DNA of 38,989 nucleotides from Planctomycetaceae bacterium (GTDB lineage Bacteria; Planctomycetota; Planctomycetia; Pirellulales; UBA1268), in contig JAIXPT010000382.1 of the NCBI GenBank assembly GCA_027486095.1, positions 1-38,989 on the forward strand, read 5' to 3'. Positions within the stretch are counted from its first letter, which is position 1, and every line of letters starts with the position of its first letter. Under the pieces are notes generated by a model, which saw only the letters and a program-made list of their open reading frames with translations, ran no database searches and was not told the origin of the DNA. Positions 9,550-36,819 of this stretch are shown one piece after another. The position numbers and the translations under genes were made by a program.

Positions 9550-9972
9550 ATGGCCGATCGCGACCACTCCCTGACCAATGAGCTCGCCCGCGAGCGCAAT
9601 CGCGAGGCGGCCGACCGCACGCTCCTGGCCTGGATCCGCACGAGCCTGGCGATGATCTCGCTCGGCTTCGGCATCGAGCGTCTGGGGCAGGCTGCCCTGG
9701 CCTTCGAGGGAGGTTTGTCGGGTTTTTCGCCGCTCAAGACTCGGCTCTTCGGTGCAGCCCTCATCGCGCTCGGCGTCGCCGCCACGCTCGCGGGCATGTG
9801 GGAGCATAAGCGGGTGCTCGAGGCCGTCTCGCACGATGGCTATCGCTACGCCGACCGGCCCCCGATCGCCCGCTACATGGGCGTGGCGCTCATCATCGTC
9901 GGACTCGCAGCGCTCGCGCTCATGCTCGTGCATTTCTCCAACCCTGAAGTCCCCGGCCCAGTGGGCGGGTGA
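9550..9972 (+). CDS. DUF202 (YidH-like) membrane protein
   Basis: MADRDHSLTNELARERNREAADRTLLAWIRTSLAMISLGFGIERLG, plus two further hydrophobic segments. The ORF track start at 9289 lies in the repeat and is unlikely. Confidence 0.88.
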   Translation: MADRDHSLTNELARERNREAADRTLLAWIRTSLAMISLGFGIERLGQAALAFEGGLSGFSPLKTRLFGAALIALGVAATLAGMWEHKRVLEAVSHDGYRYADRPPIARYMGVALIIVGLAALALMLVHFSNPEVPGPVGG

Positions 9973-16640: not shown

Positions 16641-16661
16641 CGGTTTACTCCTCTGTGGTGC

Positions 16662-17866
16662 TTAGACTTCCGTTACTACATCCAGCGATTGTATTGTAAA
16701 ACGGGGTCCGCATGCATACTGTCCGTCATGGTCTTGTCTGCATAGCTTACGCGGCAGTGATTTTGGCGGCAGCGAATCTACTGGCCACCATAGTCCTACA
16801 AACGACGCGCACGACGACGAAGATCCTTGTCGGCAGGCATGAAATCTTGCTCCCGTTGCCGCTACGTTCCATCGCAATGATCGATCCTCGCTCCGGTAGT
16901 TCATACCATAGGCGACGATGACGAGATCGGGCTTGAACCGCGCTCCCTGGCTGTCGGCCCGGGTCGCCGCGTAGCCCGAAGTGGCACCACCGCGGGAATG
17001 GTTCATGCACTCGATCGGACCACTGTATTGCCAGCCCGAAGCACGAGCAACCCGCAGCGCAGTTCGTAGTCGCGGCCAGCTTCGAGTTTTCCATCCGTCA
17101 GATTGCAGACCACCTCGATGATCCGCCGTGCCGGATAGAGCAACTGCACGACGGCCTCGGCGGCACGGTCCTCGACGAGCGGCAGGCAGGCCTCACGATA
17201 GATCATCGCCGTTGTGAGCGGGGCGATTCCCTCTTCCCAGTCGTCGTTCCATGCTGGCTCCGAGACGACTTCGAGCGTCGGCTGGGTGTGGCCCACCGCG
17301 ACCGGGAGCCCGTACACCTCGTAGGGCAGCGGCTTGCCGGTGATGCGCACCTCGAGCCGCAATGTTCGCGCGCCGTCAAGCCGGCCCAGCATAGCGTTGA
17401 CGGCATCGGTCACGTCGAGCACGTAGGTCGTTGCATGCCCCGGTTTGACGGGCATCGAGGCGACGAGTGCCGCAGGCCCGTCGGCCGTGGCGGGCAGCGA
17501 CACATGCACTGCGCCGCGTTCGCCGCTCTGCCGTGCTCCGGGCCGCTTCACAGGCACCTTCGCGACGTCGGCGAGGCGCAGCCGGGCAAGCGGCACGATG
17601 CGATCGGCGAGTGCAGCGAGATCGAATTCCAGCGCAATTCCAGCCGACGGGGCGTCCGGCTCATTCGACAAGACCAGCGCGTCAGCGGGCGCGACGCCTT
17701 TCGGCAAGGTTCCAAGCTGCTCAACGTGCGTCGCCGCTAGCCGCGAGACGCTCCCCGTAATTCGCGGATCAGATTCGGGGTTGCCGGCCCGAGCGCAGGC
17801 CGCGCATAGGACGGCGGCGATCAGGGCGGCTCTTGGCACGTGAACGCGATGGATGAAATGTCTCAT
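16662..17866 (-). pseudogene. Secreted SGNH/GDSL-type hydrolase pseudogene (N-terminal DNRLRE-like region intact, catalytic part frameshifted and truncated)
   Basis: ORF 17003..17866 ends abruptly after EAGRDYELRCGLLVLRAGNTVVRSSA. Overlapping frame (ORF 16662..17006) continues NHSRGGATSGYAATRADSQGARFKPDLVIVAYGMN, an SGNH block, with no GDSx block between them and unrelated sequence afterwards. Confidence 0.72.
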
Positions 17867-20800
17867 CGCGTCGCCGATTCCTGCACGCTTTCGGCATCTG
17901 CGACCTTCCGTAAATACCCTGCAAGTACATCGACGAGTTCGTCTTTGGATGGATCAAAGCACTCGAAGGCATGTGGCCAGCGGAAATGAATGTGCTGGCT
18001 ATGGCTGTCGGCGATATTGGCCGCGATCCAGGCCGATAGCGGCCGCCCTGCTTTAACGAACAACAGTGGCAGGCAGTGGTCCCGCTCGATCATGTGGAAG
18101 AGCGGCACCGCTTCGTTGTGGAGCCATGGGTCCTTGTCCGGGAACGCCGCCCAGTTTCCAGACACCACTCCGATGGCTCCGTCGAGCGAAATGACGCCAT
18201 GGACCTCGCTGGAAACATCCCGATGCTGACCATCGCCCTCGAATCGAGGATCGCCATTCGTCACGCCGACCAGCCCGGCAATGTTGCCCCCTGCGGAACC
18301 GCCGGCCGTGATGATGAAGTCAGGGTTGAGGTTATAGGCTGCTGCGTTTTTCCTGACCCACCGCACCGCTGCCTTCACGTCCCACACCGCCGCCGGAAAG
18401 CGGGCCTCGCGCCCGAGCCGGTATTCGACGGCAATACAAGCAAACCCCTTCTTGGCCAGACTCATGGCCACAGGCCGGTTGGTACGGTGGCTGCCGTCGA
18501 GCCAGCCACCCCCGTGGATGAAAAACACCACCGGGAGAGACCCGATCGGTGACGTCTTCGGCGTGTAAAGATCGAGCAAGAGGGCCCGCTCTCCGAGGAC
18601 GTTGTAGGTCACGTTTTCATGGACGTGGAGGTCGGCCTCTGAAGGACGCCTGGCGGGCCGCACGTCGCTGATCACCGATTCATCGAGCTGCATCGTCTTC
18701 CGAATCGCCGGAAGAAAATTGTTTGTCATGAACCGGAGGACTTCGGCGTCTGCTCGCGCGTATTCGCTTTCTGCCTTGACGAGTAGGCCGCCGGCATCCC
18801 GCACCAGCGGGACCACGTATTTTTCATGGAACGGTGAGGGTGGCGGAAAACCCTGCAGGTAAGGGTTGGAGCCCTTGTTCCGAACGTCCGCCAGACGGCC
18901 GTTGCTGCTGATCAAGTCATGGTCGTCGATGGCCCGATTGAGCAGGCTGTCCGCGGCGGCGAGCGTGGCGAAGTCGGAACGATGCACCGTTCCACCGGCA
19001 TCCTCGATCTCGAACTGCACTCGCACCGGCTGGTCGCACGCAGACTCTTGCATGCTGAATTCGAATGGGTATGTATCGTCGGTGTGGTGTGTGACCGAAC
19101 CGCAGTGATCAACGGTGAATTGGACGCGATGCACATCGCTGGCACGGCAATCCACGTAGGCATAGACCCACGTCAGCCGCTCCCCAAACGAAAGCCTGAT
19201 GGCCCGCGCTGAGCCACACGGCATGACCGCGGTGACATCGGTTGTCCCGCGACCGCCGACCGGTTGTGACCAGAGTTTGTCCTGGAACGCGGGTGTCGGC
19301 ACGAGCCCATTGATGACCAGCGACGTGAGTCCCCGCGGTGCGATGGGTACATGCACGCGCCCACCCTCCACCGGCACCGGCGTCGGCATCTTCACACCGT
19401 CCTGCCAGACCTCGGCCACGACAGTGCCCATCGGTCGGGCGAATCGCGAAAGATCGATCATGACCGCGACGTCATCGAGCGACCGATCGCATTGGTTCAT
19501 GAAGGCGATGCACAGACTGTCCGCGCTGCGGCCAGCCACGTAATTCACCTGCACGCTGTCTGTCGTAATCAGGCCCTTCGGCATCCAGGGCCGCACGCCG
19601 CTGCGGTCGTGGAATCTCCCGGGTGCGCCGTACACGCGGCCGCTGAGATAGGCATAGCCCTCCGCAAACTCTGCGGGAAACTCGATCGCGCCGTTCGACC
19701 GGGCGTAGGCATCGGCAAAGAGGTAGTCGAGCACGAGGTTCGCCATCGGCAGGCTGTGGTTGTAGTGCATCGACGTGGTCACCCTGAGCTCGTCGAACGG
19801 GTGCGATGCGAAGTCGGCCTTCTCCTGCGCCGTGGAATACCGGGTGTTGAAGTGGTAGCCCGGAAAGCCGGCGAATCGGCCGACGAGTGCCGACCGGGCG
19901 ATGTCGTGAAGGAACGGGTCGGCTGCGTCGTGCGACAGCCGCATGAAGAGCGGGGCGTGCATCGCAAGATAGAGGGCGATTCGCTGCACGGTGCCGTTGC
20001 CTTCGCAAACGAGCCCCTGTTCCGACACCCGCCAGGCCGGCACGGTCTCTGGGGCGACGCGCACCAGGCCGTCCTCGTCGGGCCTGCCGCGGCGCGGGGC
20101 GAAGCCGGTCTGGTTCACCGTGACGGAGCCCTCGGGCACGGCCGGATAAAACCAGACGAGCCGGGCGTACTGCCGAGCCCCGGCGTGGGCGGCAGCCAGA
20201 TGCCGGGGATCACGGGTTTCGAGCCACAGCTCGTAGAGTTCCTTCCACGGCGGGAGCATGTAATCGAAGAACGTGCCCGTGCCCGCTTCCGTGAAGTCGG
20301 TCGGGGGGTGAGCGGCACGGTTCGCGATCCAGGCGTCGGCTTTCCGCACGGCGGACTCGAGCGACTGCCGTTGGCCTGTGGCGCGGTACAGCCAGAGGTC
20401 GTTCTGCCACGAGTTGGCCGGGCTCACCCATTCCATGTTGAGCATCCGATCGACGCCTTCAAGTCGCTCGGCGCTCGCGAGAAAAGAGGGCGAGGCGCCC
20501 TGCGAAAGCCGCTGGAAGGCTGCCAATTCCGACACGGGCATCGCCGGGCCGGCGAGCCTCCGGGACGGCGTCTGAGAGCTGGTTGCCGTGTCGCTGAGCG
20601 CGAACAGGAATTTCTCGCGGGAGAGCAGGTATTCGAGGATCGGCACTCCCTGGTCGCGAAAGAGCCGTTCGTCGTCGGTGACGATCGCGAGGCTGATGGG
20701 ATGGAGTGCGCTGACGTTCTTGACCGTGCCCTCGGCGTCGGGATAGGTGAATGCGCGGTTGGCAGCGTCGAACCGGCCAGCCGGCCCCGTGGCGAAGGCG

Positions 20801-21708
20801 AGGATGTTGTCGAGTGCCGTGTTGAGCGAGGTGAGCGTGTTTTCACGGCGGTCGCGGAAGCCGCAGACGTCGCGGGCCACGTGTTCGAACGCCGCGTCGA
20901 GCGGCTTGGGCGTGGCGACCAGCACGACGGAGAACGACCGCGAATCGCCGGCCGACAGCACGGCGTCGGGCATGCCGGGAAAGGGTGCAAAGACGAGGGG
21001 CTGGGCCTTTCCCAGCGCGTTGCGCACGCTCACGCCGAACCTGCGCCGGCTCGACAGGGGCATCTCGAATGGAAACTGGCTCGGGTCAGCCACGACACCG
21101 ACCGTGCCGCGAGCCGACTGCACGAGACAGCCGGGAATCGAGCAGATGTCGTCGGGGATCAAAACACTTTCAGGCGGCAGCCGACGGTCGTTCCAGACGA
21201 GAGGCTGGAAGAGTTCGACGACGTCGTCGAGCGCCGCTGCCGGTACGCCGGCGTAGGCGACGGTCCACATGCCAGCTGTGCGGGCGGTGAGCGTGGAACG
21301 GATCCGCACGAGGCCGCCATCCGGTGGCACCACCACCTCGGCCTCGACCTGACAGTCGGGATGGTCGAACCGCCAGCGTACGCCAGCTCCGTGCCGCTCG
21401 ATTCGCGGAGATTCGAGCGTCAGGACGTCGCCCATCTCGAAGACGTCGGAGGCGATCCGCCCATCGGGGCGCTTGACGCCGACGAGGTTGTAGATCGGCT
21501 GTGTCCACTTCACACCGGCTGCCGGCAGAGGTCGCCCGGAGTGAACCGCCACGAACGAAGGACGAAAGACGATCGATTGACCGCCTGCCTGGGGTGTCAT
21601 GAGCACCGAGCCATCGGCGTCGATCCGCACCGCCGGCCCTGCGTCCGCCGGAGAAATCGCAAGACACGAGAAGAGCATGAACCCGAGGGCGTAGCGAAAT
21701 TCGAGCAC
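17863..21708 (-). CDS. Large secreted fusion: N-terminal alpha-helical (toroid-like) carbohydrate-active-type region plus C-terminal alpha/beta-hydrolase esterase
   Basis: GTG start at 21708 gives [23 protein letters not shown] signal peptide. C-terminus: [85 protein letters not shown]. The N-terminal family assignment is a guess. Confidence 0.8.
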   Translation of the reverse strand: [1281 protein letters not shown]

Positions 21709-21721
21709 GGGAGTGGAACCC

Positions 21722-23005
21722 TCACGCAAACAGGTCGAGCACGGGCTTGCCATCATGTGCGATCGTGAACGGCCGGCCTGATGGCGAATGCTCCGTGGCG
21801 GCGATGTCGATCCCCAGGGCAGTGGCGACGGTCGCGTTGAAGTCGGGCATCGTGACCGGCTTGTCGGCGACACGAGTTCCCGAAGCATCGGATGCTCCGT
21901 AGACGGTTCCCCCCTTGATGCCCCCGCCGGCAAGCCACCAGGTGAATGCCCCCGGATGGTGGCCGCGGCCGGCCGTAACCGAATTGATCTCAGGCGAGCG
22001 GCCGAACTCCGTCGTCAGGATCACGAGCGTCGTCGCGAGTAGGCCGCGCTCGTGGAGGTCGGCGAGCAGTGCGGCAAGCGCCTGATCCGTCGGTGGCGTC
22101 ATCTGCTCCATCTGCACGACATGGTCGTTGTGCGTATCCCAGTTGTGCTCATCGTTGACCTCCACGAACCGCACGCCATGCTCGATAAGCCGGCGGGCAA
22201 GCAGGCAGCCCTTGCCGAAAGTGTGGGGGCCATAGGCGGCTGCGACGGATGCCGGCTCGCGCGAGATGTCGAAGGCTGCGAGGTCCTTGCTCCGCATGAG
22301 GCCGACCGCCTCCTCATGGATCTTGGCGTAGGCGGCCGCCGTGCGGTTTTTCGTGCCGGAGGTAAATCTGCTCGACAGGGTTCGGGAGAGCGCATCGCGG
22401 CGGGCAAAGTCGGCCGGTGTCTCGCCGCGCAGGAGGGTCGAGTTTTGCAGGCCTGCGGCAGGATCGATGATCGGCAGCGGGGCGAGATGCGACGCCATGT
22501 AGCCGCTGCCGGGGTGCTGCGGGCTTCCGTTGACGAGCACGAAGCCGGGGAGCAGTGGGTTGTCCGTGCCGAGTTGCTTGAGCGTCCACGTGCCCAGCGA
22601 CGGGTGGCTGATCGTTGGCGTCTGAAAATAGCTGGTTTGGGCGAGGTAGGCGCCGCGCTCGTGTACGCCCTGCGTCGATGTCATCGATCGCACGAGTGCG
22701 ATGTGGTGCATCTGGCGGGCGAGTTTCGGGAACCACGCTCCGACCTGTACACCGTCGGCGCTCGTGGCGATCGCTCGCACGCCCGCCATCTCCGGCCGGC
22801 CGGGCTTCGGATCGAACGTATCGACGTGGGACATGCCACCCCGCAGATAGATCGCGATGACCTGCTTTGCGTGGCCTCCGACAGGAGGCGCTGCCGACGC
22901 CCGCCTGGCGAGGCTGCCGACGCCGACGCCGAGGAAGCTCTTGGCAAACCACTCGATGAAGCGACGGCGCGAAAAGTCGGTGTCGATCGAGGACATGTCT
23001 TTCAC
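21722..23005 (-). CDS. DUF1501 family protein
   Basis: SRRRFIEWFAKSFLGVGVGSLARR, KQVIAIYLRGGMSHVDTFDPKPG, HERGAYLAQTSYFQ..HPSLGTW, LTTEFGRSPEIN..GRGHHPGAFTWWLAGGGIKGGTVYGASD. Confidence 0.95.
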   Translation of the reverse strand: MKDMSSIDTDFSRRRFIEWFAKSFLGVGVGSLARRASAAPPVGGHAKQVIAIYLRGGMSHVDTFDPKPGRPEMAGVRAIATSADGVQVGAWFPKLARQMHHIALVRSMTSTQGVHERGAYLAQTSYFQTPTISHPSLGTWTLKQLGTDNPLLPGFVLVNGSPQHPGSGYMASHLAPLPIIDPAAGLQNSTLLRGETPADFARRDALSRTLSSRFTSGTKNRTAAAYAKIHEEAVGLMRSKDLAAFDISREPASVAAAYGPHTFGKGCLLARRLIEHGVRFVEVNDEHNWDTHNDHVVQMEQMTPPTDQALAALLADLHERGLLATTLVILTTEFGRSPEINSVTAGRGHHPGAFTWWLAGGGIKGGTVYGASDASGTRVADKPVTMPDFNATVATALGIDIAATEHSPSGRPFTIAHDGKPVLDLFA

Positions 23006-23006
23006 C

Positions 23007-25355
23007 TCACTGCACGAACAGGAATTCAGGCGTGTTCACGAGGGCCCAGGCGATGTCGCGCTCCGGCGTTGCGGCGGCCTCCCACGCGTCGCGGCAGGCC
23101 CGCGACTCCTCGTCGGTCGGGCTCCGGATCAGGATGGCCTCGTAGAGCGTGCGAATCCGGTCGTCGCGATCCTTGACCGTCGCGAGCGACTTCATGAGGA
23201 GCGACGTGGGGGCCACCACCGCGCCGGTCAGGTCGCCGTTCATGAGCGACAGCGCATGTGTCACCTTGGCGTCGCGACTGAAGGCGTCGATCTCCCGTCG
23301 GTCGGATTGGCCGAACTGCCGCAGAAAGTGGCCGAGTTGTACAGGCACGGCCAGTTCGGAGGCGCGCACCCAGCCGGAATTGAGCCGGCTCCAGCGGGGG
23401 TCCGCTTCCTTGGCCCTAGCTGGGGGCTCTACACCAGCGGAAACCTTGAGATCGGTGAGCTCGCGGTTGACGATTTTCAACTGTGCATCGAGCCGGCGCT
23501 CTTCTTCACTGTTGCCGCTGCGCCGGGCCGCATCGAGGCTGACGAGCAGTGCCTTGCGCCGAAGGTCGTTCTCGCGGCGATTGCGAAAAAACTCGCTCAT
23601 GACGCGAGAGCGAGCGAGCAGTTCGTCGGGGCCCATGGTGGCGAGCCGGTGATACTCTTCCCGCTCCCAGGTGTGGTCGTTCGGCGTCTTCCGCTCGTCG
23701 AGATCCTGGACGAGGAGCGTGAGCAACGAATCCCAGACCTGCTCCGCAGACAGTCGACGCACGAGGGGACCCCGCAGAGCGGACGGCTGCCCGGGGGCAG
23801 GAGGCTCGTCGTCTGCCCCGCTCTGATAGAGACGCGTATTGAGCACAACCGCGAGGAATGCCCGCTCGTCGAAGCCAAGGCGTGCCATCATCTCGGAGAG
23901 GAAGGCGAAGAGTTCCGGCTGTGCGGGCCGCGTCATCGGCGACAGCGAATCGACGGGCTCAACGAGGCCGACGCCCAGTACCCGCTTCCAGAGCCGGTTG
24001 GTGATGTTCCGCGAGAACCGCGGATTGCGCGGAGATGTCATCCAGGCGGCGAGCGCCTCTCGGCGCTTTTCCACCGCGGCCGGCGCCTCGTCGCCGAATG
24101 GAGTGCGCGTGCCGGCCTTCGTGCCACGGGCCGGCTCGAGCGCGTAATCTTTGGGATAGACGAGCTCGTTCGTCGTGTCTTTCGTGAGCCGCTTGAGGAC
24201 GGCGACGGTGCGGCTCGCGGCCTGGCGGACGTTGTCTCCGGCCTGGGTGTCTTCGAGCTTGGCCTTGAGCGCCTTCCAGTGCCTGACGTTATCGACCGAG
24301 AAGCCCGCTTCGCTGCACAGGTTCGTGACGCCGAACGTATACGCGGAGAGCTGATAGAAGTCCTGCTGTGTGACGGGCTCGTGCGGATGATCGTGGCACT
24401 GGGCGCATTCGATCCGGGTGCCGAGGAATACGCGGGCCATGTTCGACGTGTGATCGAGCGGCATGCCGAGGTCACGAAGATAAAATCCAACTGCTCCGTC
24501 ATCCCACGGGTACCCACTCGACGTCACGAGCCGGCGCACGAACTTGTCGTAGGGCATGTCGGTGCGCACCGATTCTTTCACCCACTCGTCGTACATCCAG
24601 CCAGGCGTGCCGGCGATGATGCGGAGCAGGTCGGCTTTCCAGTTGAACGTGTGGCTGACATATCCCGGCCCGTCGAGAACCTCATCGATCAGCCGAGCCC
24701 TCTTGCCGGTCGATCCGTCGGCGAGAAACCGGCGTGTTTCCGCGAGACTCGGGATTCGGCCGGCCACATCGAGATACACCCGCCGCAGGAACACCTCGTC
24801 GTCGATCGGGGGGTTGAGTCGCGTACCCTGCGTCGCGTGCCACGCGTCGATGAGCCCATCGACCTGGCGAGCAAGCGTCGGAACGTCGGCACGCGAGAGC
24901 TGTGAACCGGCAAATTCGATCGCCGGCTCGCGGTGCTCGAATGCCTGCCACGAGCCGAATGGTGCGCCGGCGGTGATCCAACGGCGCAGGAGATCCCGCT
25001 CACTCTCCGAGAGCGGCTGCCCTCCGCCCTTGAGCGGCGGCATGAAGTGCTCATCGGTGAGCGGCAACGACACGCGGGCCAGCAGTTCACTCGCATCCGG
25101 CTTGCCCGGCACGATCACAGCTGCCTCGTGGATACCTGTGGCCGTGTCGAGTTTCATGCCGGCGGCGGGCTCAGCCTTCTTGCCGCTGTGGCAGGCGAAA
25201 CAACGCGAATAAAGAAGCGGCAGCACGTCGCGCTCGAAGTCGGGCGATGCGGCGCCGGCTGCAGTTTCGGCTGCGGCCGGCGCGTCGGGCATGAGGCTCG
25301 CGACGAGCGGAGCCGCCACCAGTCCGGCTGCAATGACGCGTCCGAGCTGATTCAT
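23007..25355 (-). CDS. PSCyt1/DUF1549-DUF1553 cytochrome-type protein
   Basis: DFERDVLPLLYSRCFACHSGKKAEPAAGMKLDT, PPIDDEVFLRRVYLDVAGRIPSLAETRRFLAD, FLGTRIECAQCHDHPHEPVTQQDFYQLSAYTFG, NPRFSRNITNRLWKRVLGVGLVEPVDSL, ALVNTPEFLFVQ. Confidence 0.95.
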   Translation of the reverse strand: MNQLGRVIAAGLVAAPLVASLMPDAPAAAETAAGAASPDFERDVLPLLYSRCFACHSGKKAEPAAGMKLDTATGIHEAAVIVPGKPDASELLARVSLPLTDEHFMPPLKGGGQPLSESERDLLRRWITAGAPFGSWQAFEHREPAIEFAGSQLSRADVPTLARQVDGLIDAWHATQGTRLNPPIDDEVFLRRVYLDVAGRIPSLAETRRFLADGSTGKRARLIDEVLDGPGYVSHTFNWKADLLRIIAGTPGWMYDEWVKESVRTDMPYDKFVRRLVTSSGYPWDDGAVGFYLRDLGMPLDHTSNMARVFLGTRIECAQCHDHPHEPVTQQDFYQLSAYTFGVTNLCSEAGFSVDNVRHWKALKAKLEDTQAGDNVRQAASRTVAVLKRLTKDTTNELVYPKDYALEPARGTKAGTRTPFGDEAPAAVEKRREALAAWMTSPRNPRFSRNITNRLWKRVLGVGLVEPVDSLSPMTRPAQPELFAFLSEMMARLGFDERAFLAVVLNTRLYQSGADDEPPAPGQPSALRGPLVRRLSAEQVWDSLLTLLVQDLDERKTPNDHTWEREEYHRLATMGPDELLARSRVMSEFFRNRRENDLRRKALLVSLDAARRSGNSEEERRLDAQLKIVNRELTDLKVSAGVEPPARAKEADPRWSRLNSGWVRASELAVPVQLGHFLRQFGQSDRREIDAFSRDAKVTHALSLMNGDLTGAVVAPTSLLMKSLATVKDRDDRIRTLYEAILIRSPTDEESRACRDAWEAAATPERDIAWALVNTPEFLFVQ

Positions 25356-26341
25356 GGCCCCACCAGTTCCGGCTGGTGGCCGATCACGAGTTGCACGTCG
25401 TCGAGATAGTGGGCCCCAAACTCGTCGGTGCGCTGGTGGGGATCCTTGGAGTCGTTGGAGATTCCGGCGCGGATGAGCAGATAGTCGGTTTCAGGTGGCA
25501 GCCGCAGCTCGTTGGTCGCCCGCTGCCAGGTGACAGGATCGGCATCGAGGCGCACCCGGCTGCTCTGCGAATGGGCGAGCGAATTCCGTGATACGTTGGC
25601 GTCGCCCAGAGGAACACCGTCGTGGACCAGCGCCGTGTCGAGGGCATAGATGGTGAGCGTGCAGGAGAGCGGATCGGTGGCGGCGGAACCGGCGGCGTTG
25701 AAGAGCGCCCCGAGCTGCACCACCACGGTCCCGTCGATAAAATCGCGGCGCAACTGCCGCACGTCAACGAGCTTGAAGACGTCGCTCGAGTGACTGTCCG
25801 GAATGAACCGGCCCTCGTAGTCGCCACGAAGAAAACGCAGCATGCATCGACCCTCCGCCGGTGGGACACCGTCACTCGCACCGACGAGATCGGCATGATC
25901 GCCACTCCATACCCCGGGCTCCGACGGGATGCCCAAAGCCTGCAGCTTGGGGTCACCCTCGAAGCCCTCGCGCATCACCGTGACTGCCACGCTGCGGACC
26001 GGCACGGCGTAGGCGAGGACGATCGACGCCCCGCACAGACCGAAAAGCACGCCGGCGACGATGGCCGCAGCTCGCGAGCCGAGAGCCGTTCGCCACTCAG
26101 ACCGCTGCATCAAAGACGGCATGCGATATGCCGCCTGACGCAGCTGCTCGTGCACCAGCATCGAGAGGACGAACTGGTCGCTGAACAGCTTTCGCTTTGC
26201 AGCATCGCCGGCCAGTTCCCGCTCAAACGCTTCCTGCTCCGCGGGGGATAGCGCGTTATCCTGAAACCGCACGAGCAGTTCGCGGAATGCCAAGTCGTCT
26301 GCCGATCGGCAGTCGTTTTCTGAATTCTGATCGAGCATCAT
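25352..26341 (-). CDS. Candidate membrane anti-sigma factor with extracytoplasmic carbohydrate-binding-like domain
   Basis: Start MMLDQNSENDCRSADDLAFRELLVRFQDNALSPAEQEAFERELAGD (anti-sigma-like helical N-terminus), one TM (AAAIVAGVLFGLCGASIVLAYAV), then a beta-rich region ending YLLIRAGISNDS..HYLDDVQLVIG. Overlaps the sigma gene by 4 nt. The ORF track N-terminal extension is rejected. Confidence 0.75.
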   Translation of the reverse strand: MMLDQNSENDCRSADDLAFRELLVRFQDNALSPAEQEAFERELAGDAAKRKLFSDQFVLSMLVHEQLRQAAYRMPSLMQRSEWRTALGSRAAAIVAGVLFGLCGASIVLAYAVPVRSVAVTVMREGFEGDPKLQALGIPSEPGVWSGDHADLVGASDGVPPAEGRCMLRFLRGDYEGRFIPDSHSSDVFKLVDVRQLRRDFIDGTVVVQLGALFNAAGSAATDPLSCTLTIYALDTALVHDGVPLGDANVSRNSLAHSQSSRVRLDADPVTWQRATNELRLPPETDYLLIRAGISNDSKDPHQRTDEFGAHYLDDVQLVIGHQPELVGP

Positions 26342-26850
26342 GATCCTTCGTGCTGCAGGCGAGCCCGCATGCAGTCTCCGAGCGACTTGTGGACCCGGGT
26401 GAGAGCCTGGTAGATGGTTTCGAGCTTCCGCCCCATGAGTGCAGCGACGTCGGGGCAGGAACGCCGCTCGAAGTAGCGGAGACGCAGTAGTTCGCGGTTG
26501 TTGGCGGTGAGCCGCTCGAGGCAGGCACTCAACGCCTCTGCCAGCCCGTCGGCCTGGGCTTTTCGGGGCCATTCGTCGGCAAGCGTGGCGAGGAGGCTGT
26601 CGCTCAGGCCTGAGTAGTGCCCATGGCGAGCCCGCAGGACGTCGATCGCCCGGTTTTTGCCCACGACCCGAGCCCAGTGAATGAGATGCTCGGACGTCTC
26701 GAAATCGTTCTCGCGACTGACGGCCTTGACGCACACTTCCTGAAAAATGTCTTCAGACACGTGAAAATCACGGGTTACCGTTGCGATGTAGGCAGTCAGG
26801 GGCAGTCGTTGGCTGAACAGCACGGCGGCGATTTCTTCTGCGACGAGCAT
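26338..26850 (-). CDS. ECF-type RNA polymerase sigma factor
   Basis: AYIATVTRDFHVSEDIFQEVCVKAV...HWARVVGKNRAIDVLRARH and LERLTANNRELLRLRYFERRSCPDVAALMGRKLETIYQALTRVHKSL (sigma regions 2 and 4). Confidence 0.92.
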   Translation of the reverse strand: MLVAEEIAAVLFSQRLPLTAYIATVTRDFHVSEDIFQEVCVKAVSRENDFETSEHLIHWARVVGKNRAIDVLRARHGHYSGLSDSLLATLADEWPRKAQADGLAEALSACLERLTANNRELLRLRYFERRSCPDVAALMGRKLETIYQALTRVHKSLGDCMRARLQHEGS

Positions 26851-26867
26851 TGAGCCTCCGCGGCTAT

Positions 26868-26895
26868 TACGAAGAATCCGCTAAACACTCGACAT
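26868..26895 (-). promoter_or_regulatory. Candidate ECF-sigma promoter (site 1) upstream of the sigma operon
   Basis: Minus strand ATGTCGAGTGTTTAGCGGATTCTTCGTA: shared 9-mer + 15-nt spacer + CGTA, followed by GGAGG and the sigma ATG. Confidence 0.75.
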
Positions 26896-27002
26896 GCCGG
26901 ACTTGGGCGGACGACTTCGACGCCGACGATTTTCTGAAAGGGTTGTCTTTTATTTGCAAAAACGCCCTTCCGGAGAGGCGGCGGAAGGTTGTAAGAGCCG
27001 CG

Positions 27003-27030
27003 ATGTCGAGTTGCAGAGCCTCTATCCGTA
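27003..27030 (+). promoter_or_regulatory. Candidate ECF-sigma promoter (site 2) upstream of the DUF1559 gene
   Basis: Plus strand ATGTCGAGTTGCAGAGCCTCTATCCGTA, 53 nt before ATG 27084. Confidence 0.72.
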
Positions 27031-27083
27031 TAAATTCATTAGGGGTGGGATGATCCGCCCGGCGTTGTGATCAAGGTCGTCTC

Positions 27084-28082
27084 ATGGGCAAGGCACTGGC
27101 GGCGGGATTTCGAGGACGTGGTCGATGCACGGCATTTACGCTCGTCGAACTTTTGGTCGTCATTGCGATCATCGGCCTGCTCATCGGCCTGCTCCTCCCG
27201 GCCGTGCAGGCAGCCCGCGAGGCAAGCCGGCGGTCATCGTGCGCGAGCAACCTCAAGCAGGTCGGTCTCGCTGTTCACAACTTCGAAAATATAAAGAAAA
27301 GAATCCCGCGGTTGCGGTCTGGAAATGCTGGCGGAGCCCACTCATGGGCCTTGCTGCTCCTGCCTTTTCTCGAGCAGCAAGCGGCCTTTCAGAGGTTTGG
27401 CGGCTCCATCTATGGTGGCAACCCGTACGACGGAATCGTAAATCTCACGAATTCGACATTCAAGAACACGGGCGCGCTGGCGACGCGGGTGGCCGAATTC
27501 AACTGCCCTTCGAGAAATCGCACGACGTTCTTCACAACGTATAACACGCCAGGGGCCAATGCCTCCGGTCAATATGGGTTTTGTGGCGACTATGCGCTCA
27601 ACGTCGGCACGTCGTGGTCAATGCCCATCAATGGCCCGTTCCCAAACGATTATTTTGATACGGGATTGTTTGCCGGGTTGAGAGGCGGGGTGGGTTTGCG
27701 GCTCGCCGATATCAGCGACGGTCTGAGCAAGACGGTGTTTGCGGGAGAAAAGCATGTCCCGCCGACTCGTTTTGGCACCGCTGTCTACGTCACCCAGTCC
27801 AACCCCAGCCCTTCGGGAGTCGATGACTACGACAACACCGTGTACTCGTCGTTTGCCAACTCCTGGAACAACGCTCGTCTCACGCATAGTTTGGGCTTGG
27901 CCGATGGGCCAAACGACACATCGGCCAACAGTCGCTTCTTCGGCGGCTACCATCCCGGAACAGTCCTGATGTTGATGGGCGACGCGAGTGTACGAGTGTT
28001 CCAATCGCAGATCGCCGGAAGCGTGCTCCAAAGCTTGGGCTCACGATCAGGAGGAGAAGTGTTTGACACCGGTGCCTACTAG
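27084..28082 (+). CDS. DUF1559 family pseudopilin-like protein
   Basis: [54 protein letters not shown], and C-terminal [26 protein letters not shown]. Confidence 0.95.
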
Positions 28083-28101
28083 GACGGATTCACCGATCTC
28101 A

Positions 28102-28587
28102 ATGCTTCTGCAGGACGCCGCGATGTCGAGATGCCGTGCGATGACTACGCTGTGCAGTTCCGCTTGGAGCGGGCGCTTCCTCGTAGTGATGGCGTCCATC
28201 ATGATGTCGGGGTGTGGTGATCGCCGGTTCCCCGTCGAGGGCAAGGTCTGCTATGAGGATGGCACGCCATATTCGGGGGGCGGCGTGGTGGTCATGGAGA
28301 CTGCCGTTGGGAAGAAAATAATCATGAAGCGGGCCCCGATTAGCCCGGACGGGACATTTCGTACGGCAGCGGGCACCCCGAGCGGCGCCGTCGCGGGCAC
28401 CTACCGAGTGAGAATTCTACCCGCAGCCGTTGATGAAGAACGTGATGACGGCAAGCCCGCGCCACCGCTTCCGTACGATAAGAAATTCTCGTCCTTTGAA
28501 ACCTCCGGCCTCGAGTGGGTCGTGGGGCCTGCCATGTCTTCCCGTGACCTCATGATCGACTTGGGGAGTCGGCCGGCATCCCAATGA
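28102..28587 (+). CDS. Small lipoprotein with carboxypeptidase-regulatory-like fold
   Basis: Hydrophobic leader with lipobox-like MMSGCGD, then FPVEGKVCYEDGTPYSGGGVVVME...ISPDGTFRTAAGTPSGAVAGTYRVRILP. Confidence 0.78.
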   Translation: MLLQDAAMSRCRAMTTLCSSAWSGRFLVVMASIMMSGCGDRRFPVEGKVCYEDGTPYSGGGVVVMETAVGKKIIMKRAPISPDGTFRTAAGTPSGAVAGTYRVRILPAAVDEERDDGKPAPPLPYDKKFSSFETSGLEWVVGPAMSSRDLMIDLGSRPASQ

Positions 28588-28701
28588 TCGGCGTTGGAAA
28601 AACAGGCACGCCATATCGCCTGCTTCGGGCAGTTCGGTGAATTCCGGCCGCGTGCTTTAGGTGCTCGCGCGGCTTTCCCGCGTTTCCCGCCCTTCACGTC
28701 C

Positions 28702-29340
28702 TCAGCGAGGATCACAGAGCGGCTCGATCTGGATATCCCGGTAGCGAATCTGGCCGATGAATCCGCCGTGAATCTGGAGCCCGACCCTGCCCCGCTGTGG
28801 AATCGTCTGGTCGGGTTCCGTGTAGTCAGCCATTTCGACGCCGTTGATCGCCAGGCGGATTCGCGGCCCCTCGCAGCGGATGACGTATTCATTCCAACCG
28901 TTCTTGGCGAGGGCTAACGCCTGCTGCTGCGTGTCCTTGGGCGGCACGACGAGCAGCTTGTTACGACGGCTCTCGTCGTAGATCGCTCCCGTGATGCCCG
29001 GAGCGATGTCGGCCTGGTAGCCGATCATCTCGTGATGATTTGGCACGCGTTGCGATCGGAACTGAATGCCAGCGTTGCAGCTCTTCACGCAGTCGATGCC
29101 ATACTCCAGGCGAAGCACGAAGTTGTCATATTCCACGTCGGTGGCCAGGAACTCGTTTCGCGGTGCGGGCGTCTCCGGGCTACCGGCCACGATCGTGCCA
29201 CGCTCGATCCGCCAGGTATGTTCGGTGTCGCCATTCCAGCCGGCGAAGGTCTTCCCGTCGAAGAGTACGACGGTCTCAGCGGCATGCGTATGCACTGCCA
29301 CCAGCAGCATCGCTGCCAGCACACAACCGAGTCGTGGCAT
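28702..29340 (-). CDS. DUF1080 (3-keto-disaccharide hydrolase-like) secreted protein
   Basis: ETVVLFDGKTFAGWNGDTEHTWRIERGTIVAGSPE..NEFLATDVEYDNFVLRLEYGI..NAGIQFRSQRVP..MIGYQADI and GRVGLQIHGGFIGQIRYRDIQIEPL. Confidence 0.95.
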   Translation of the reverse strand: MPRLGCVLAAMLLVAVHTHAAETVVLFDGKTFAGWNGDTEHTWRIERGTIVAGSPETPAPRNEFLATDVEYDNFVLRLEYGIDCVKSCNAGIQFRSQRVPNHHEMIGYQADIAPGITGAIYDESRRNKLLVVPPKDTQQQALALAKNGWNEYVIRCEGPRIRLAINGVEMADYTEPDQTIPQRGRVGLQIHGGFIGQIRYRDIQIEPLCDPR

Positions 29341-29378
29341 GATCGTCTCGCTTGATTCGTGAGTGAGTCGCATTGAAT

Positions 29379-30785
29379 TCACGATCGCTGCCGTTCGATC
29401 CACGGGTTGCGTTCCGGACGGCTCTTCAACAGGTTGGCCTCGTCGTCCAGTCCGCCGTCAGCCGTCACGAAGACCTCCTTTGCGGGATCGAACGAAAGTT
29501 TGCGACCCAGAATCCAGGCATTGGCCGCGGCGTGGCACGCGATGTGGCTCTTGCGCATGACGTCGGCGTTACAGACGGTCGGCTGCCGGGACTTGATCGA
29601 ATCGAGAAAATTTCTCCAGTGGAGGACGACGTCATGCCACTTGGCCGTGTTTTCCGCGCCGGCCACTTCGGCCCGCAGGTTTTCGTCCGACAAATCGATC
29701 CGAGACAGGTCACCAGTTTCCACCCAGCCCTCGTCTCCAATGTACTTCACCGGGCACGTGCCGAGCGCCGTGTTCCAGTTGGGCCCCCGGTCGCCGAAGG
29801 GAGTTGCCAGGAAGTCGAGAAACAGGAGCACGCCGTTGGCGTAGCAGCATTCGATCCCCTTTTCGGTTGGCTCGAATGTGAGCGGCGTCGTGTCGTCACT
29901 GCCGTTTGCCCACTGGCAGAGGTCCACGGTGTGGGCGCCCCAGTCGAGCAGTTTGGCTCCTGAGTCAAAGTCGTAGATGCCACGCCACTTGCCGTCCGCA
30001 TACAGTTGGTTGAACGGTCGCCACGGCGCCGGGCCGAGCCAGAGATTCCAGTCGCAGATTTCTTTGGGAGGCGTCGGTTCGGCTGGCAACCATTCATTGC
30101 CCAGGATCGGGGAGTAGACCGAGGCGTTGAGTCGGGTGATCTTGCCGAGCTTACCCGATTGGGCGAGCCGCCGTGCGGCTGCGTAGTGTGGGGCGCTTCG
30201 TCGCTGCGTGCCGGCCTGAAAGATCCGGCCAGTCTTCTTGAACGTTTCGGCGAGCCGCTGGCAGATGTCGATCGTCAGACCGCAGGGCTTCTCGCTGTAG
30301 ACATCCTTGCCCGCCTCGGCCGCCATCAGGGAGGCTGGACCGTGCCAACGGTCTCCGGTAGCGATGAAGACGGCGTCGATGTCCTGGCGTGCGAGCAATT
30401 CGCGGAAGTCGTGATAGAGGACGCAGTCTTTGGTGCCATACTTCTCATCGACCAGCGTTTTGCCGATATCGCGGCGGGAGGCCTGCACGTCGGCGATCGC
30501 CACGCATTGCACGTCGGGTAGGCTCAGCATCGCCTTTAAGACGCCCCTCGCGCGGCCGCCGACACCGATCACACCGAGCGTGATCCGCTCACTGGCGGCG
30601 GCCGCCTGCTCGAGGCCGAGGGCCCGGGCCGACACGATCGTGGGCAACGCGACAGCGCCAGCCGCCAGGGACTGGGCGAGAAACTCGCGGCGTGATGCGC
30701 GGGGGTGATCGAAGCAAGAAGTAGAGGCCAAGGGCTGCGTCATGGGAGATACCTGCGGACTTGATTGGGATTCGAGTTCACTCAT
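29379..30785 (-). CDS. Gfo/Idh/MocA family oxidoreductase with Tat-type signal
   Basis: ASRREFLAQSLAAGAVALPTIV, ITLGVIGVGGRARGVLKAML, DVYSEKPCGLTIDICQRL, KEICDWNLWLGPAPWRPFN. ATGA overlap with the GH95 stop. Confidence 0.93.
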   Translation of the reverse strand: MSELESQSSPQVSPMTQPLASTSCFDHPRASRREFLAQSLAAGAVALPTIVSARALGLEQAAAASERITLGVIGVGGRARGVLKAMLSLPDVQCVAIADVQASRRDIGKTLVDEKYGTKDCVLYHDFRELLARQDIDAVFIATGDRWHGPASLMAAEAGKDVYSEKPCGLTIDICQRLAETFKKTGRIFQAGTQRRSAPHYAAARRLAQSGKLGKITRLNASVYSPILGNEWLPAEPTPPKEICDWNLWLGPAPWRPFNQLYADGKWRGIYDFDSGAKLLDWGAHTVDLCQWANGSDDTTPLTFEPTEKGIECCYANGVLLFLDFLATPFGDRGPNWNTALGTCPVKYIGDEGWVETGDLSRIDLSDENLRAEVAGAENTAKWHDVVLHWRNFLDSIKSRQPTVCNADVMRKSHIACHAAANAWILGRKLSFDPAKEVFVTADGGLDDEANLLKSRPERNPWIERQRS

Positions 30786-33151
30786 TGCATCACGCGTAGC
30801 TCGGAGTTGAGGGTGATCGTTTGCCCTGCGGTCGCCGTGAGAGACACCGTCTTGTCGCCCGTGCGGACGGTGAGGGCACCGGCTGTGCCGGGCCGCAGTG
30901 TGGCGGATTGCAGTCGGCCGCCCGCCCACGCGAGGTCGACCTCGACGTTTCCGCGGGCGCGGAGGCCGCGGACACTGCCTGCCGGCCATGCCTCGGGGAG
31001 CGCCGGCAGCAGATCGATCGCCCCGTCGTGGCTCTGGACGAGCATTTCGGCCACGGCCGCCGGGGTGGTCATGTTGCCGTCGATTTGGAAGACACCCGGC
31101 GTATTTGCCCGCGGATGGAAGTCCATCAGATTGGGGAACGTGCACCGGCGCAACAAGGTCATCGCCGTGTCGTATGCCTGTCTGCCGTCACCCAGGCGGG
31201 CCCACAGACAAGCGTTCCACGCCAGGCTCCAGCCGACGCTGCTGGCATCGCTGATATTCACCTTCTTGACCTGATCGCCGGTGATCCGTGCCACCAGCGA
31301 CTTGCGAGCCGCCTCGGCCAGATCGGGCGTTCGCCGCGGCGTCATGCTGCAGCCCGGATACACGCCGAACAGATGCGACACGTGACGATGTGCCGGCTCC
31401 CGCTCCTCGTATTCCTTGGACCATTCGAGCAGCCGGCCATCCGAGCCGATTTTCGGGCCGGCCAACTTCGCCCGCTTCGCACGGATCTCTTGGATGGTGT
31501 CGTCTTCGATACCGAGAATTCCGGCGGCTTCCAGCGTGTTGTCGAACACCTCGGCGATGAGCAGCTGATCGAGCGTCGGCCCCATGCAGAGCTGGCTGAT
31601 CGTGCCATCCGGCAGCACGAAGGAGTTCTCCGGAGAGATCGACGGGCCGCTGACCAACTTGCCGGTCTCCGGGTCCTGCACCAACCAGTCGCAGAAAAAT
31701 AAGGCGGCTTCCCGAATGGTCGGATACGCCCTCGTTCTCAGGAACTCGCGGTCCTGTGTAAAGCGATAATGTTCCCACATGTTTTGCACCGCCCAGCCGG
31801 CGCCCATTGGCCAGACGGTGAAGCCCTTGACCGGGCTCGTGAAGAAATTGGCATTCGTGCGGTGGGCAGCCACGAAGCCCCGGGCGTTGTAGACGTCTTT
31901 GGCGGTCTTGCGACCATTGACACGCAGGCGGTCGATGAGATCGAAGAACGGTACGTGCAGATCGGAAAGATTGAGCGTCTCGGCGTGCCAGTAAATCATC
32001 ATGGCGTTGGGATCGAGATGCCAGCCGCCGAACCACGGTGCATTCAGCTCATGATTCCAGAGCCCCTGCAGATTTGCCGGTAAGCCGCCGGGCCGTGACG
32101 AAGAAATCAATAAGTAGCGGCCGTAGTTGAAATGCAGCTCGATCAAGCCCGGATCGCCGCCGCCGTTTTTCACGAGATCCAGGCGTTTGTCCGTGGGCAA
32201 CTCCTCCGGGCCGTCGCCCACTTCGATGTCGACGCGGCGGAAATATGGCTGGCAGTCGGCCAGGTGCTCAGCCAGCAATCGGTCGCACGACATTTCGGCC
32301 GCACGATCGAGGGCCGACTGCGGCACGTCCTGCCAGCCCTCGGCCCCGTCGAAATCCGTGGCAGCTGACAACAACACGAGCGCCGAATCAGCCCCTGTCA
32401 CAACGAGCTTGCCATCGACCATGGCCCGCCGTCCCCCGTCATTGACAACCCGCAACTGTCCCAGGAAACGCGTGCCAGCCGTCGGCTCGCCATCATCCGC
32501 ACGGCCCCGCAACACGAGGTCGTCTCCCGATGCTTCGGTTTTCGCAGCCGCAATCCGGTCGAGCGCGGCAGTGAAGCTCACCCGCCCGGGCTTGTCGCAC
32601 GTGAATCGTACTACCAGCACCTTGGCAGGAAAGCTGACAAATGCCTCACGCACGAAGACTACATCGCCTTGGCGATAGCGCACGGTGGCGACGGCCCGTG
32701 CCATATCCAACTCGCGGCGATAGTCGCTCACCGCACCATCGGCATGAAAATGGAACGTCAGGTCCCCGAGCGGCTGATACGACCCGAGCGGCCGGTCGCC
32801 CAAAATCTCCTTCTTGACGAGCGCGTCCGCCTCGGCGTGCTTGCCGCCGAACAGCAGCCGGCGGACCTCCGGCAGATGCTCATGCGCGCCGACACGGTCG
32901 TAGTCCGAGCGATTTCCAGACCAGATCGTTTGCTCGTTGAGCTGAAGGCGTTCGTGCTCCACACCGCCGAACACCATCGCCCCGATCCGGCCGTTGCCAA
33001 CGGGAAGGGACTCGTGCCAAAGCTGAGCTGGCTGCCGATACCAGGCGACGGATTCACCTCCGTGCGCCAGCGAGTGCGACGCCAGCGACACCGCCAGAGT
33101 GCTCAGGAACAGGATGCACTCGAACATCGGTTTCATCGCAGGCGTATCCAT
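30782..33151 (-). CDS. Glycoside hydrolase family 95-like (alpha-L-fucosidase type), secreted
   Basis: WYRQPAQLWHESLPVGNGRIGAMVFGGVEHERLQLNEQTIWSG, LISSSRPGGLPANLQGLWNHELNAPWFGGWHLDPNAMMIYWHAETLNLSDLHVPFFDLIDRL, PSISPENSF, HRHVSHLFGVYPG, FQIDGNMTTPAAVAEMLVQSHDGAIDLLPALPEAWPAGSVRGLRARG. Confidence 0.95.
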   Translation of the reverse strand: MDTPAMKPMFECILFLSTLAVSLASHSLAHGGESVAWYRQPAQLWHESLPVGNGRIGAMVFGGVEHERLQLNEQTIWSGNRSDYDRVGAHEHLPEVRRLLFGGKHAEADALVKKEILGDRPLGSYQPLGDLTFHFHADGAVSDYRRELDMARAVATVRYRQGDVVFVREAFVSFPAKVLVVRFTCDKPGRVSFTAALDRIAAAKTEASGDDLVLRGRADDGEPTAGTRFLGQLRVVNDGGRRAMVDGKLVVTGADSALVLLSAATDFDGAEGWQDVPQSALDRAAEMSCDRLLAEHLADCQPYFRRVDIEVGDGPEELPTDKRLDLVKNGGGDPGLIELHFNYGRYLLISSSRPGGLPANLQGLWNHELNAPWFGGWHLDPNAMMIYWHAETLNLSDLHVPFFDLIDRLRVNGRKTAKDVYNARGFVAAHRTNANFFTSPVKGFTVWPMGAGWAVQNMWEHYRFTQDREFLRTRAYPTIREAALFFCDWLVQDPETGKLVSGPSISPENSFVLPDGTISQLCMGPTLDQLLIAEVFDNTLEAAGILGIEDDTIQEIRAKRAKLAGPKIGSDGRLLEWSKEYEEREPAHRHVSHLFGVYPGCSMTPRRTPDLAEAARKSLVARITGDQVKKVNISDASSVGWSLAWNACLWARLGDGRQAYDTAMTLLRRCTFPNLMDFHPRANTPGVFQIDGNMTTPAAVAEMLVQSHDGAIDLLPALPEAWPAGSVRGLRARGNVEVDLAWAGGRLQSATLRPGTAGALTVRTGDKTVSLTATAGQTITLNSELRVMQ

Positions 33152-33221
33152 ATGTCAACGGATCACGGGCCGGATTGGCCGCGATCGGATCAGACTCGAG
33201 GCCGATCCACCCGACAAGGAT

Positions 33222-33249
33222 TACGAGTGACCGGTGAAAAACTCGACAT
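33222..33249 (-). promoter_or_regulatory. Candidate ECF-sigma promoter (site 3) upstream of the GH95 operon
   Basis: Minus strand ATGTCGAGTTTTTCACCGGTCACTCGTA, 70 nt before the GH95 start. Confidence 0.75.
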
Positions 33250-33366
33250 GGGTCTTGTCCGACCCAGGGCAAGTGGACCGTCGGCGTCGGCTCGGTGTGC
33301 GTCGGGCCAGCCTCGGGCTGTTGGGGCAACTTTGGCTGCGTACCCCCAGTTCTCGTACCGGGTCGG

Positions 33367-36300: not shown

Positions 36301-36669
36301 GACCGCCGAGGGGTCGAGGAGTGACTCGACGAGGTGCGCGACGAGCCGCTCGGGCGGCACACCCGCCGGCATCGCGGTGAGATTCGGCCCGAGCCGGCTC
36401 GGGCCTGCGCCCGCCGAATGGCACTGCGTACAGGTGATGTGGGGCGTGTGGAAGAGCTTCGAGCCCCGCCGCGCGTCGCCCGCTCGGGCCACGTCCGCCA
36501 CAAGGGCTGCCCTATCCTCGGCAGCGAGGTCCGCCGCGAGTCTCGCAGAACCGTTCAGCGGCGCAGCCGACACCGGTGGGGCAGCTGCCGCGAGGGTTGC
36601 GACGAGCAGGCACGCCCGTGCCATCCGCCCGCGACCGATCACCACGACTGCTTGCATCGCTTTCCTCAT
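33367..36669 (-). CDS. Large secreted diheme cytochrome with Pirellula/Verrucomicrobium-type heme domain, second cytochrome c and C-terminal beta-propeller-like region (DUF6797-like centre)
   Basis: ITCTQCHSAG (36418-36432) and YARVCANCHGT (35857-35871), GVTIVTTDGRSLSGIVARETADGIIVRDA, C-terminal propeller text (FHEFAMGLETDAAGNMYYAKSSRHG...GTLLKVSCDG..RAANGVCVEPDGTFWVTDQEG). ATG 36723 is an alternative start. Confidence 0.88.
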   Translation of the reverse strand: MRKAMQAVVVIGRGRMARACLLVATLAAAAPPVSAAPLNGSARLAADLAAEDRAALVADVARAGDARRGSKLFHTPHITCTQCHSAGAGPSRLGPNLTAMPAGVPPERLVAHLVESLLDPSAVVRPEDRGVTIVTTDGRSLSGIVARETADGIIVRDAAAGGREVPTRKTDVEERVGATVSLMPAGLANLLADRGQFLDLVRFLAEVAEGGPERAAALAPDPTTFAVQIPPTYETDIDHAGFIADWRDPSKAKNAFDRGAAIYARVCANCHGTLEAPGSLPTAPRFTSGSFKAGSDPHAMYHTLTHGAGLMVAQGWMVPSQKYDVIHYIREEFLKEHNPTRYTAVTADYVAGLPTGTSRGPEATLIEPWRTHDYGPFLSGSFEVGSDGTNVARKGLAVRLDTGPGGVGGGRAWLLYELDTVRVAAFWTGASFIDWAGINFDGRHGAHPRVAGDVQTTLSTMPGWADPATGSFADPRPLGRDRKPYGPLPREHVTFRALHHVAADGGTVMEPRSTVVLEYLVAGTRVLESPALAPPLADGATLIPVAIRSFSLGARPRLLAVRLAAAPAAAALVGPPRAGDTATQPRIETRDGYVDLVVPAGPEPLDVSVAIARSEPEPLARHATELTALPPPCSLVGRPAPRLWAESIEASLVPGSNDGPFAVDGLSAPATNPWNAQVRFSGIDFTGPDEAALCTWDGDVWTVRGITAAAGRLEWLRIASGLYQPLGLKLVDGTIRVGCRDRIVSLVDLDSDGMTDCYETFNDDHQVTEHFHEFAMGLETDAAGNMYYAKSSRHGLSAVVPHHGTLLKVSCDGSTTEIIATGFRAANGVCVEPDGTFWVTDQEGFWCPKNRINHVRPGGFYGNLLGWTDVTDESDAAMEPPVVWITNAFDRSPAELLRVPNPSWAPITAALIELSYGEGRIHLVLTEPTAGDAAGRSRTQGGVVRLPIPDLPTGIMRGRFHPADGALYACGLFAWAGNRTQPGGLFRVRRTDQPLTMPVGLHTEPGAISLDFGAPLDRSAAADPAAWTVRTWGLNRTKNYGSKHLDERDRAVTMAEVSADGRRVTLRVPTFAATWCYAVEWRTKAADGAPMNGILHGSMH

Positions 36670-36741
36670 TTCGGCGGCAGATCGCGCGAACACGCGGGTA
36701 GTGATCGTATTGGAGGGGTGCATGGAGCACCTTGGCCGAAG

Positions 36742-36769
36742 TACGAGCGGGCAACAAAAAACTCGACAT
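36742..36769 (-). promoter_or_regulatory. Candidate ECF-sigma promoter (site 4) upstream of the diheme cytochrome gene
   Basis: Minus strand ATGTCGAGTTTTTTGTTGCCCGCTCGTA, 18 nt before ATG 36723 and 72 nt before ATG 36669. Confidence 0.75.
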
Positions 36770-36819
36770 TGGCTGCGTCGAGACGGCCAATTTGCCCGTG
36801 TGCCGTACGTCGCCTGGCG

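Follow-up and report, generated by a model that had tools for sequence, protein, structure and literature searches.

A putative glycan-sensing ECF sigma/anti-sigma switch with a mosaic anti-sigma at the head of a PSCyt-DUF1501 operon in a planctomycete island

We analysed a 38,989-nt stretch of DNA from a Planctomycetaceae bacterium (order Pirellulales; assembly GCA_027486095.1, contig JAIXPT010000382.1), hereafter the window. Its minus strand carries a tightly packed operon encoding an extracytoplasmic function (ECF) sigma factor, a membrane anti-sigma candidate, a PSCyt1-PSCyt2-PSD1 protein, a DUF1501 protein and a 1281-aa protein, followed by the remains of an SGNH-hydrolase gene (Table 1). 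A previous reading made from the letters alone (the sequence-only reading) had described a six-gene, translationally coupled operon headed by its own sigma factor. On recheck, its gene coordinates and reading frames were correct, and its labels for the ECF sigma, PSCyt, DUF1501 and the esterase end of the large protein all matched Pfam. The sixth gene is broken: the only remaining piece, "NHSRGG...PDLVIVAYGMN", is out of frame with the upstream half; neither the GDS motif nor the remainder is left. As the SGNH gene is a pseudogene, the unit consists of five intact genes and a remnant.

A shared ATGA joins sigma to anti-sigma (4 nt, 26338-26341), anti-sigma to PSCyt (25352-25355) and the large-protein gene to the SGNH remnant (17863-17866), and 13 nt separate the DUF1501 gene from the large-protein gene, all as first described. 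The 1-nt gap given before DUF1501 has to be revised: ATG 22996, preceded by GAGGTGA, is a likelier start than GTG 23005 and leaves 10 nt to the PSCyt gene. Overlaps and domains support translational coupling of the genes in one unit, which includes a sigma/anti-sigma pair of its own and a large hydrolase-like protein. A search for sigma-70-like promoters inside the operon found none, so a single continuous transcript is plausible. Codon-position GC is normal in all five intact genes.

The same order, often with overlapping genes, is present in three Verrucomicrobia loci (L117, from Brevifollis gellanilyticus, L226 and L227) and in a fourth, L113, where one large open reading frame is inserted before the last gene. 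The proposed check for conserved order thus returned four Verrucomicrobia genomes, and on this ground the packing is far beyond chance. Partial versions also occur: in L231 the first four genes stand together and the large one lies on a different contig of that genome; L122 retains sigma, anti-sigma and the large gene; a planctomycete (G167) keeps PSCyt, DUF1501 and the large gene in order, without sigma. The PSCyt subfamily is rare (6 others in 397 genomes of the source's order, 6 in 289 genomes of the Brevifollis order), and DUF1501 comes after it wherever the contig continues. The sequence-only reading called PSCyt1-DUF1501 pairs common in planctomycetes; the whole unit is not general there but forms an island specific to this species, with its counterparts mainly in Verrucomicrobia. 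A general pairing of anti-sigma and PSCyt was also ruled out, as the planctomycete anti-sigma relatives have no PSCyt or DUF1501 downstream. The source genome itself holds four more sensor-type anti-sigma relatives (contigs C325, C100, C454 and C431; loci L068, L080, L082 and L088), with sigma genes nearby and no PSCyt or DUF1501 after them.

Table 1. Features of the operon and of the surrounding island (window coordinates).
Feature	Position	Strand	Remark
ECF sigma factor (regions sigma2 and sigma4; TIGR02989-like; Verrucomicrobia lineage A, 59-70% identity)	26338..26850	-	
Membrane anti-sigma candidate	25352..26341	-	cytoplasmic helical half, transmembrane segment, outer sensor
PSCyt1-PSCyt2(DUF1549)-PSD1(DUF1553) secreted protein	23007..25355	-	two conserved CxxCH haem motifs
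DUF1501 protein, TAT-type signal	21722..22996	-	ATG start favoured over GTG 23005
1281-aa toroid glycosidase-like/BD-FAE esterase fusion	17863..21708	-	start GTG 21708
Decayed SGNH-hydrolase gene	16662..17866	-	frameshift and internal loss; island edge
Predicted promoter of the sigma operon, TGTCGAGTGTTTAGCGGATTCTTCGTA	26868..26894	-	ends 17 nt before sigma ATG
Predicted same-class promoter, divergent, upstream of DUF1559 gene	27004..27030	+	
Predicted same-class promoter, upstream of GH95	33222..33248	-	highest-scoring site; 71 nt from the GH95 gene
Predicted same-class promoter	36742..36768	-	ends 18 nt before DUF6797 gene
DUF1559 pseudopilin-like protein	27084..28082	+	predicted regulon member
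3-keto-disaccharide hydrolase (PF06439)	28702..29403	-	
Gfo/Idh/MocA oxidoreductase, TAT-type signal	29379..30785	-	ATGA overlap with GH95
GH95-family glycosidase	30782..33151	-	
Cytochrome c/DUF6797 protein	33367..36723	-	predicted regulon member
Island missing from congeners G002, G003 and G005	16650..36800		approximate ends

The operon lies at one end of this island. In the three congeners, the FAD oxidoreductase gene is followed by a distant DUF1559 gene and then by the PATR gene, and nothing at the locus resembles the sigma operon, GH95 (glycoside hydrolase, GH), Gfo/Idh, the 3-keto-disaccharide hydrolase or DUF6797; in the window, the FAD-to-PATR interval is about 20 kb. GC drops from 0.686 to 0.646 with the island, and no direct or inverted repeats of at least 11 nt were found between the stretches compared at its ends. 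The left flank (alpha-2-macroglobulin, FMN-binding, FAD oxidoreductase) has 68-89% orthologues within the genus in kept order. A mis-binned contig was ruled out by the flanking alpha-2-macroglobulin and FMN genes (68-87% orthologues in the genus). The FAD oxidoreductase gene directly downstream (14358-16640) was rejected as an operon member, as the operon-less congeners keep the FAD and FMN-binding genes in the same order, at 82-89% conservation; by this comparison, it is an older neighbour outside operon and island. The island was probably acquired; the closest relatives by identity are mixed (a planctomycete for PSCyt, 59%; Verrucomicrobia for sigma, 70%, and the large protein, 63%), and the transfer may have run in either direction. 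On the plus strand, a 2050-aa bacterial alpha-2-macroglobulin (2977-9129) and an L-lactate permease (9969-11645) are conserved genus backbone. Positions 36820-38901 encode a PATR-repeat protein with a PEP-CTERM sorting motif, which matches several places in the congeners, and the left window end cuts off a further gene of PSCyt2 type, different from the operon's own (3-1925, minus strand).

The sigma factor (170 aa) matches PF04542 and PF08281 above cut-off and has sigma2 and sigma4 only, as ECF sigmas do. It scores 106.4 bits against TIGR02989 (Sig-70_gvs1), whose curated cut-off is 124.55, and is therefore near that family but not a member by that rule. Relatives with 54-70% identity occur in 34/289 Verrucomicrobia genomes, and proteins of six planctomycetes from another family are 38-52% identical; the sigma is not present in the other sampled members of the source's own family. 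TGTCGAG(T/A)TTT followed by CGTA stands upstream of all 24 sigma genes of lineage A, the Verrucomicrobia lineage with which the window sigma groups (window included), as a putative promoter motif. The exact pattern TGTC-N19-CGTA is present in 21 of these 24 upstream regions (3-4 in shuffles), and four of the distant planctomycete sigma relatives carry the same motif.

In the window, the exact pattern was found 4 times, against 0.02 expected. A matrix built on 37 sites from Verrucomicrobia relatives of the sigma, none of them from the window, gave these sites scores of 36.3, 30.7, 26.0 and 24.8, the next best window site reaching 9.9. Each of the four is correctly oriented before a gene, all lie within the island, and none occurs elsewhere in the window; 2.9 Mb of other loci contain one site of the same spacing, and about 0.3 Mb of the source genome outside the window contain no site with the 16-nt spacing. 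Since all four sites are inside the island, control by the sigma probably extends over the island as a whole rather than over one operon. Considering the GH95-Gfo/Idh ATGA overlap and the 3-keto-disaccharide hydrolase gene next to it, the predicted regulon would comprise about ten genes. The operon is thus headed by its own sigma, as the sequence-only reading held, while the predicted reach of this sigma goes beyond it. Furthermore, near lineage-A sigma genes of Verrucomicrobia (L285, L287 and L292) the same promoter class precedes SGNH and PSCyt1-PSD3-PSD5-PSD4-PSCyt3-PSD2 genes (Pfam-confirmed in L287), so both planctomycete cytochrome classes may fall under such sigmas.

The anti-sigma candidate has a helical, putatively sigma-binding half (aa 1-85), a transmembrane segment at about aa 88-112 and an outer beta-jelly-roll sensor (aa 113-329). 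It shows the general features of an anti-sigma: it adjoins the sigma gene, has a single transmembrane segment, and its putative sigma-binding half is co-inherited with sigma. It does not qualify as a zinc anti-sigma (zf-HC2 E 0.024, 15.2 bits against a cut-off of 22.2; no HxxxCxxC). The two halves have different relatives. Residues 1-85 match only anti-sigmas beside lineage-A sigmas (40-46% identity, E 1e-8 to 1e-10, repeated in further loci), whereas the outer domain is 43-53% identical to PSCyt-linked anti-sigmas against 35% to lineage A. Coherently, the window sigma is 66-67% identical to lineage A against 24-29% to the sigmas of the orthologous operons. In the trees, sigma groups with lineage A (support 100/100) and the sensor with the PSCyt-linked set (97/98), and the opposite placements were rejected by the approximately unbiased (AU) test (p 0.0002 for sigma, 0.027 for the sensor). 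A single clade of PSCyt-linked sigmas was ruled out (AU p 2.8e-44). Judging from these comparisons, the anti-sigma is a natural chimera, whose sigma-binding half tracks the sigma and promoter lineage and whose sensor tracks the PSCyt-DUF1501 operon. A single swap could also be imitated by hidden paralogy; a division within one and the same protein could not.

The seven members of the sensor clade carry at least four sigma lineages (the window; L117/L226/L227; L113/L231; L122). The three lineage-B operons (L117, L226 and L227) have CGGTAA-N17-CATACA and no lineage-A site. The promoter class therefore changes with sigma below one sensor, and output cassettes appear exchangeable. A broader reading, possible but in our judgement somewhat short of even odds, is that promoter, sigma and sigma-binding half together make up a replaceable output cassette, and that three or more such replacements have taken place under a conserved glycan sensor that goes with the PSCyt-DUF1501-hydrolase genes; here the cassette would rule a four-promoter island, with PSCyt and DUF1501 as enzymes of a periplasmic glycan-cleaving pathway.

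Concerning the proteins of the operon, the structures nearest to the sensor model in Foldseek are sugar-binding jelly rolls, namely Fbs1 and the carbohydrate-binding modules (CBM) CBM61, CBM22 and CBM16, the model being of low confidence. The PSCyt protein has PSCyt1, PSCyt2 and PSD1 in this order, as expected of the PSCyt2-PSD1 group, and its two CxxCH motifs are kept across 11 aligned relatives. DUF1501 matches PF07394 over its full length (338 bits, positions 1-390 of 390), carries the twin-arginine translocation (TAT)-type signal motif SRRRFIEWF and has a faint PDB match to GalNAc-6-sulfatase (E 0.07). Sulfatase match and signal are in line with an alkaline-phosphatase-like role, without proving it.

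The large protein has a predicted (alpha/alpha)-toroid glycosidase-like region (aa ~26-916) fused to a BD-FAE esterase (aa ~1045-1280; 121.8 bits, above the Pfam cut-off), which contains the motif GGSAGG (GxSxG). Its N-terminal model (confidence 89.9) consists of a beta-sandwich, a helical toroid and beta-domains, and its nearest Foldseek matches are GH15, GH95, GH36, GH97 and GH65 (E-values from 1e-5 to 1e-7; global TM-scores low). Scanning GTDB genomes with this N-terminal family retrieved 79 loci (L111-L189), mostly from Verrucomicrobia and Bacteroidota, the latter often with several copies per locus. The homologues adjoin GH106, GH95, GH43, GH97, GH3, sugar transporters and esterases, and FAD_oxidored genes lie beside them in 35/79 loci; the BD-FAE fusion was seen in this window only, among these loci. 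The N-terminal region, widespread (79+ loci) and without a Pfam model, is thus a candidate new glycosidase family, as far as its predicted fold indicates. A 440-510-aa family distinct from BD-FAE and without a Pfam match, alpha/beta-hydrolase-like by its motifs, is found near the large gene in L114, L116, L122, L125, L131, L132, L140, L144 and L158.

Taken together, we propose, with a probability of about two in three, that an acquired island of ~20 kb serves periplasmic glycan degradation under the control of a glycan-sensing, RsgI-like ECF sigma/anti-sigma switch. The sequence itself shows the gene order with its conservation, the island, the four promoter sites and the chimeric anti-sigma; sigma release, carbohydrate as its signal and the catalytic roles are what we infer here. 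At rest, the membrane anti-sigma would hold sigma through its cytoplasmic N-terminal half; binding of a carbohydrate to the outer jelly-roll domain, or its loss, would free sigma, as in RsgI/SigI. Freed sigma would transcribe its own operon from TGTCGAG(T/A)TTT-N-CGTA promoters, and also drive DUF1559, the GH95-Gfo/Idh-3-keto-disaccharide hydrolase genes and the cytochrome/DUF6797 gene. The head operon would supply a secreted PSCyt1/2-PSD1 cytochrome, its TAT-exported partner DUF1501 and the large glycosidase-like/esterase fusion, and GH95, Gfo/Idh, the 3-keto-disaccharide hydrolase, the large hydrolase, DUF1501 and PSCyt may cooperate in one periplasmic glycan pathway.

Several points weigh against this proposal. 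Confidence in the sensor model is low (mean pLDDT 58.9, built from four sequences), and jelly rolls bind non-sugars too. The N-terminal region of the large protein has no sequence match in Pfam, NCBIfam or PDB, and its Foldseek TM-scores are about 0.2, so only a general toroid fold is indicated. The BD-FAE match covers 143/215 profile positions, with the C-terminal third unmatched and the triad Asp not located. Finally, only seven members of the sensor clade are known, and the sigma and sensor comparisons are based on short proteins.

The sigma/anti-sigma pair might instead sense envelope damage, a lipid or a peptide, the hydrolases being incidental passengers. ECF sigma/anti-sigma pairs often serve stress responses (PMC7406223), and about 25 further anti-sigma genes encode homologues of the sensor domain while differing in their downstream genes, which are often DUF1559. 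We consider this unlikely, as the sensor subclade is bound to one cassette (PSCyt-DUF1501-large hydrolase), the predicted targets are sugar enzymes and the sensor model is CBM-like. Less likely still is a sigma that autoregulates its own operon only, the other three promoter matches being coincidental or used by another sigma: the DUF1559 site does share an intergenic region with the sigma site and could be its by-product, but the further sites score highly, are correctly oriented and are confined to the island, and in the Verrucomicrobia relatives, too, a second site stands in front of SGNH and PSCyt3 genes. Decay of the operon to a non-functional state after transfer, with a mismatched sigma/anti-sigma pair, could be read from the SGNH remnant and the mosaic anti-sigma, yet it is very improbable, since the other five genes and the promoter sites are intact, codon-position GC is normal and the sigma-binding half matches its own sigma, so the pair is not mismatched.

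A glycan-sensing switch of this kind has partial counterparts. In Bacteroidota, polysaccharide utilisation loci place glycan enzymes under a trans-envelope ECF/anti-sigma switch; no SusC/SusD pair was found among the main window proteins, and the locus is not of that type. A close likeness is SigI/RsgI of Clostridium thermocellum (PMC4711584), where a membrane anti-sigma has a cytoplasmic sigma-binding N-terminus and an outer carbohydrate-binding domain (here CBM-like on a low-confidence model), and sigma controls its own expression and, through scattered promoters, that of glycan-degrading genes (here predicted); the -10 element is CGWA there and CGTA here. Here, however, a two-domain ECF sigma replaces sigma-I, the jelly-roll sensor is another one, the targets include PSCyt/DUF1501, and the anti-sigma has no Pfam match to RsgI_N. 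As in ECF sigma/class I anti-sigma pairs (PMC7406223), the anti-sigma spans the membrane once and sigma and sigma-binding half are co-inherited; unlike in them, there is no match to a curated zinc-finger anti-sigma domain, and the sensor half is exchanged independently. The large-protein model shares the beta-sandwich, helical toroid and beta-domain layout of the (alpha/alpha)6 glycosidases GH95, GH65 and GH15, but the protein has no detectable sequence similarity to them and carries the BD-FAE fusion. PSCyt genes with the same kind of domain order and pairing with conserved unknown neighbours were described in freshwater Verrucomicrobia (PMC5615132). The part of that paper considered here places them near sulfatases and CBMs, states that nothing is known of their functions and offers a carbohydrate role as a guess only; it names no regulator, whereas a sigma, a promoter class and predicted co-regulated sugar enzymes are attached here. 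The part of the literature searched contained no paper that links an ECF sigma with PSCyt/DUF1501.

PSCyt and DUF1501 are protein families that abound in Planctomycetes and Verrucomicrobia and are still unexplained. In this window, sequence evidence connects them with one particular sigma, with a promoter that can be read and with sugar enzymes of named families. A cultured strain, Brevifollis gellanilyticus, has the same operon, and together these points make their role testable. Furthermore, the sigma/anti-sigma mosaic would represent a natural domain-swap experiment, marking the place at which an anti-sigma tolerates cutting and rejoining.

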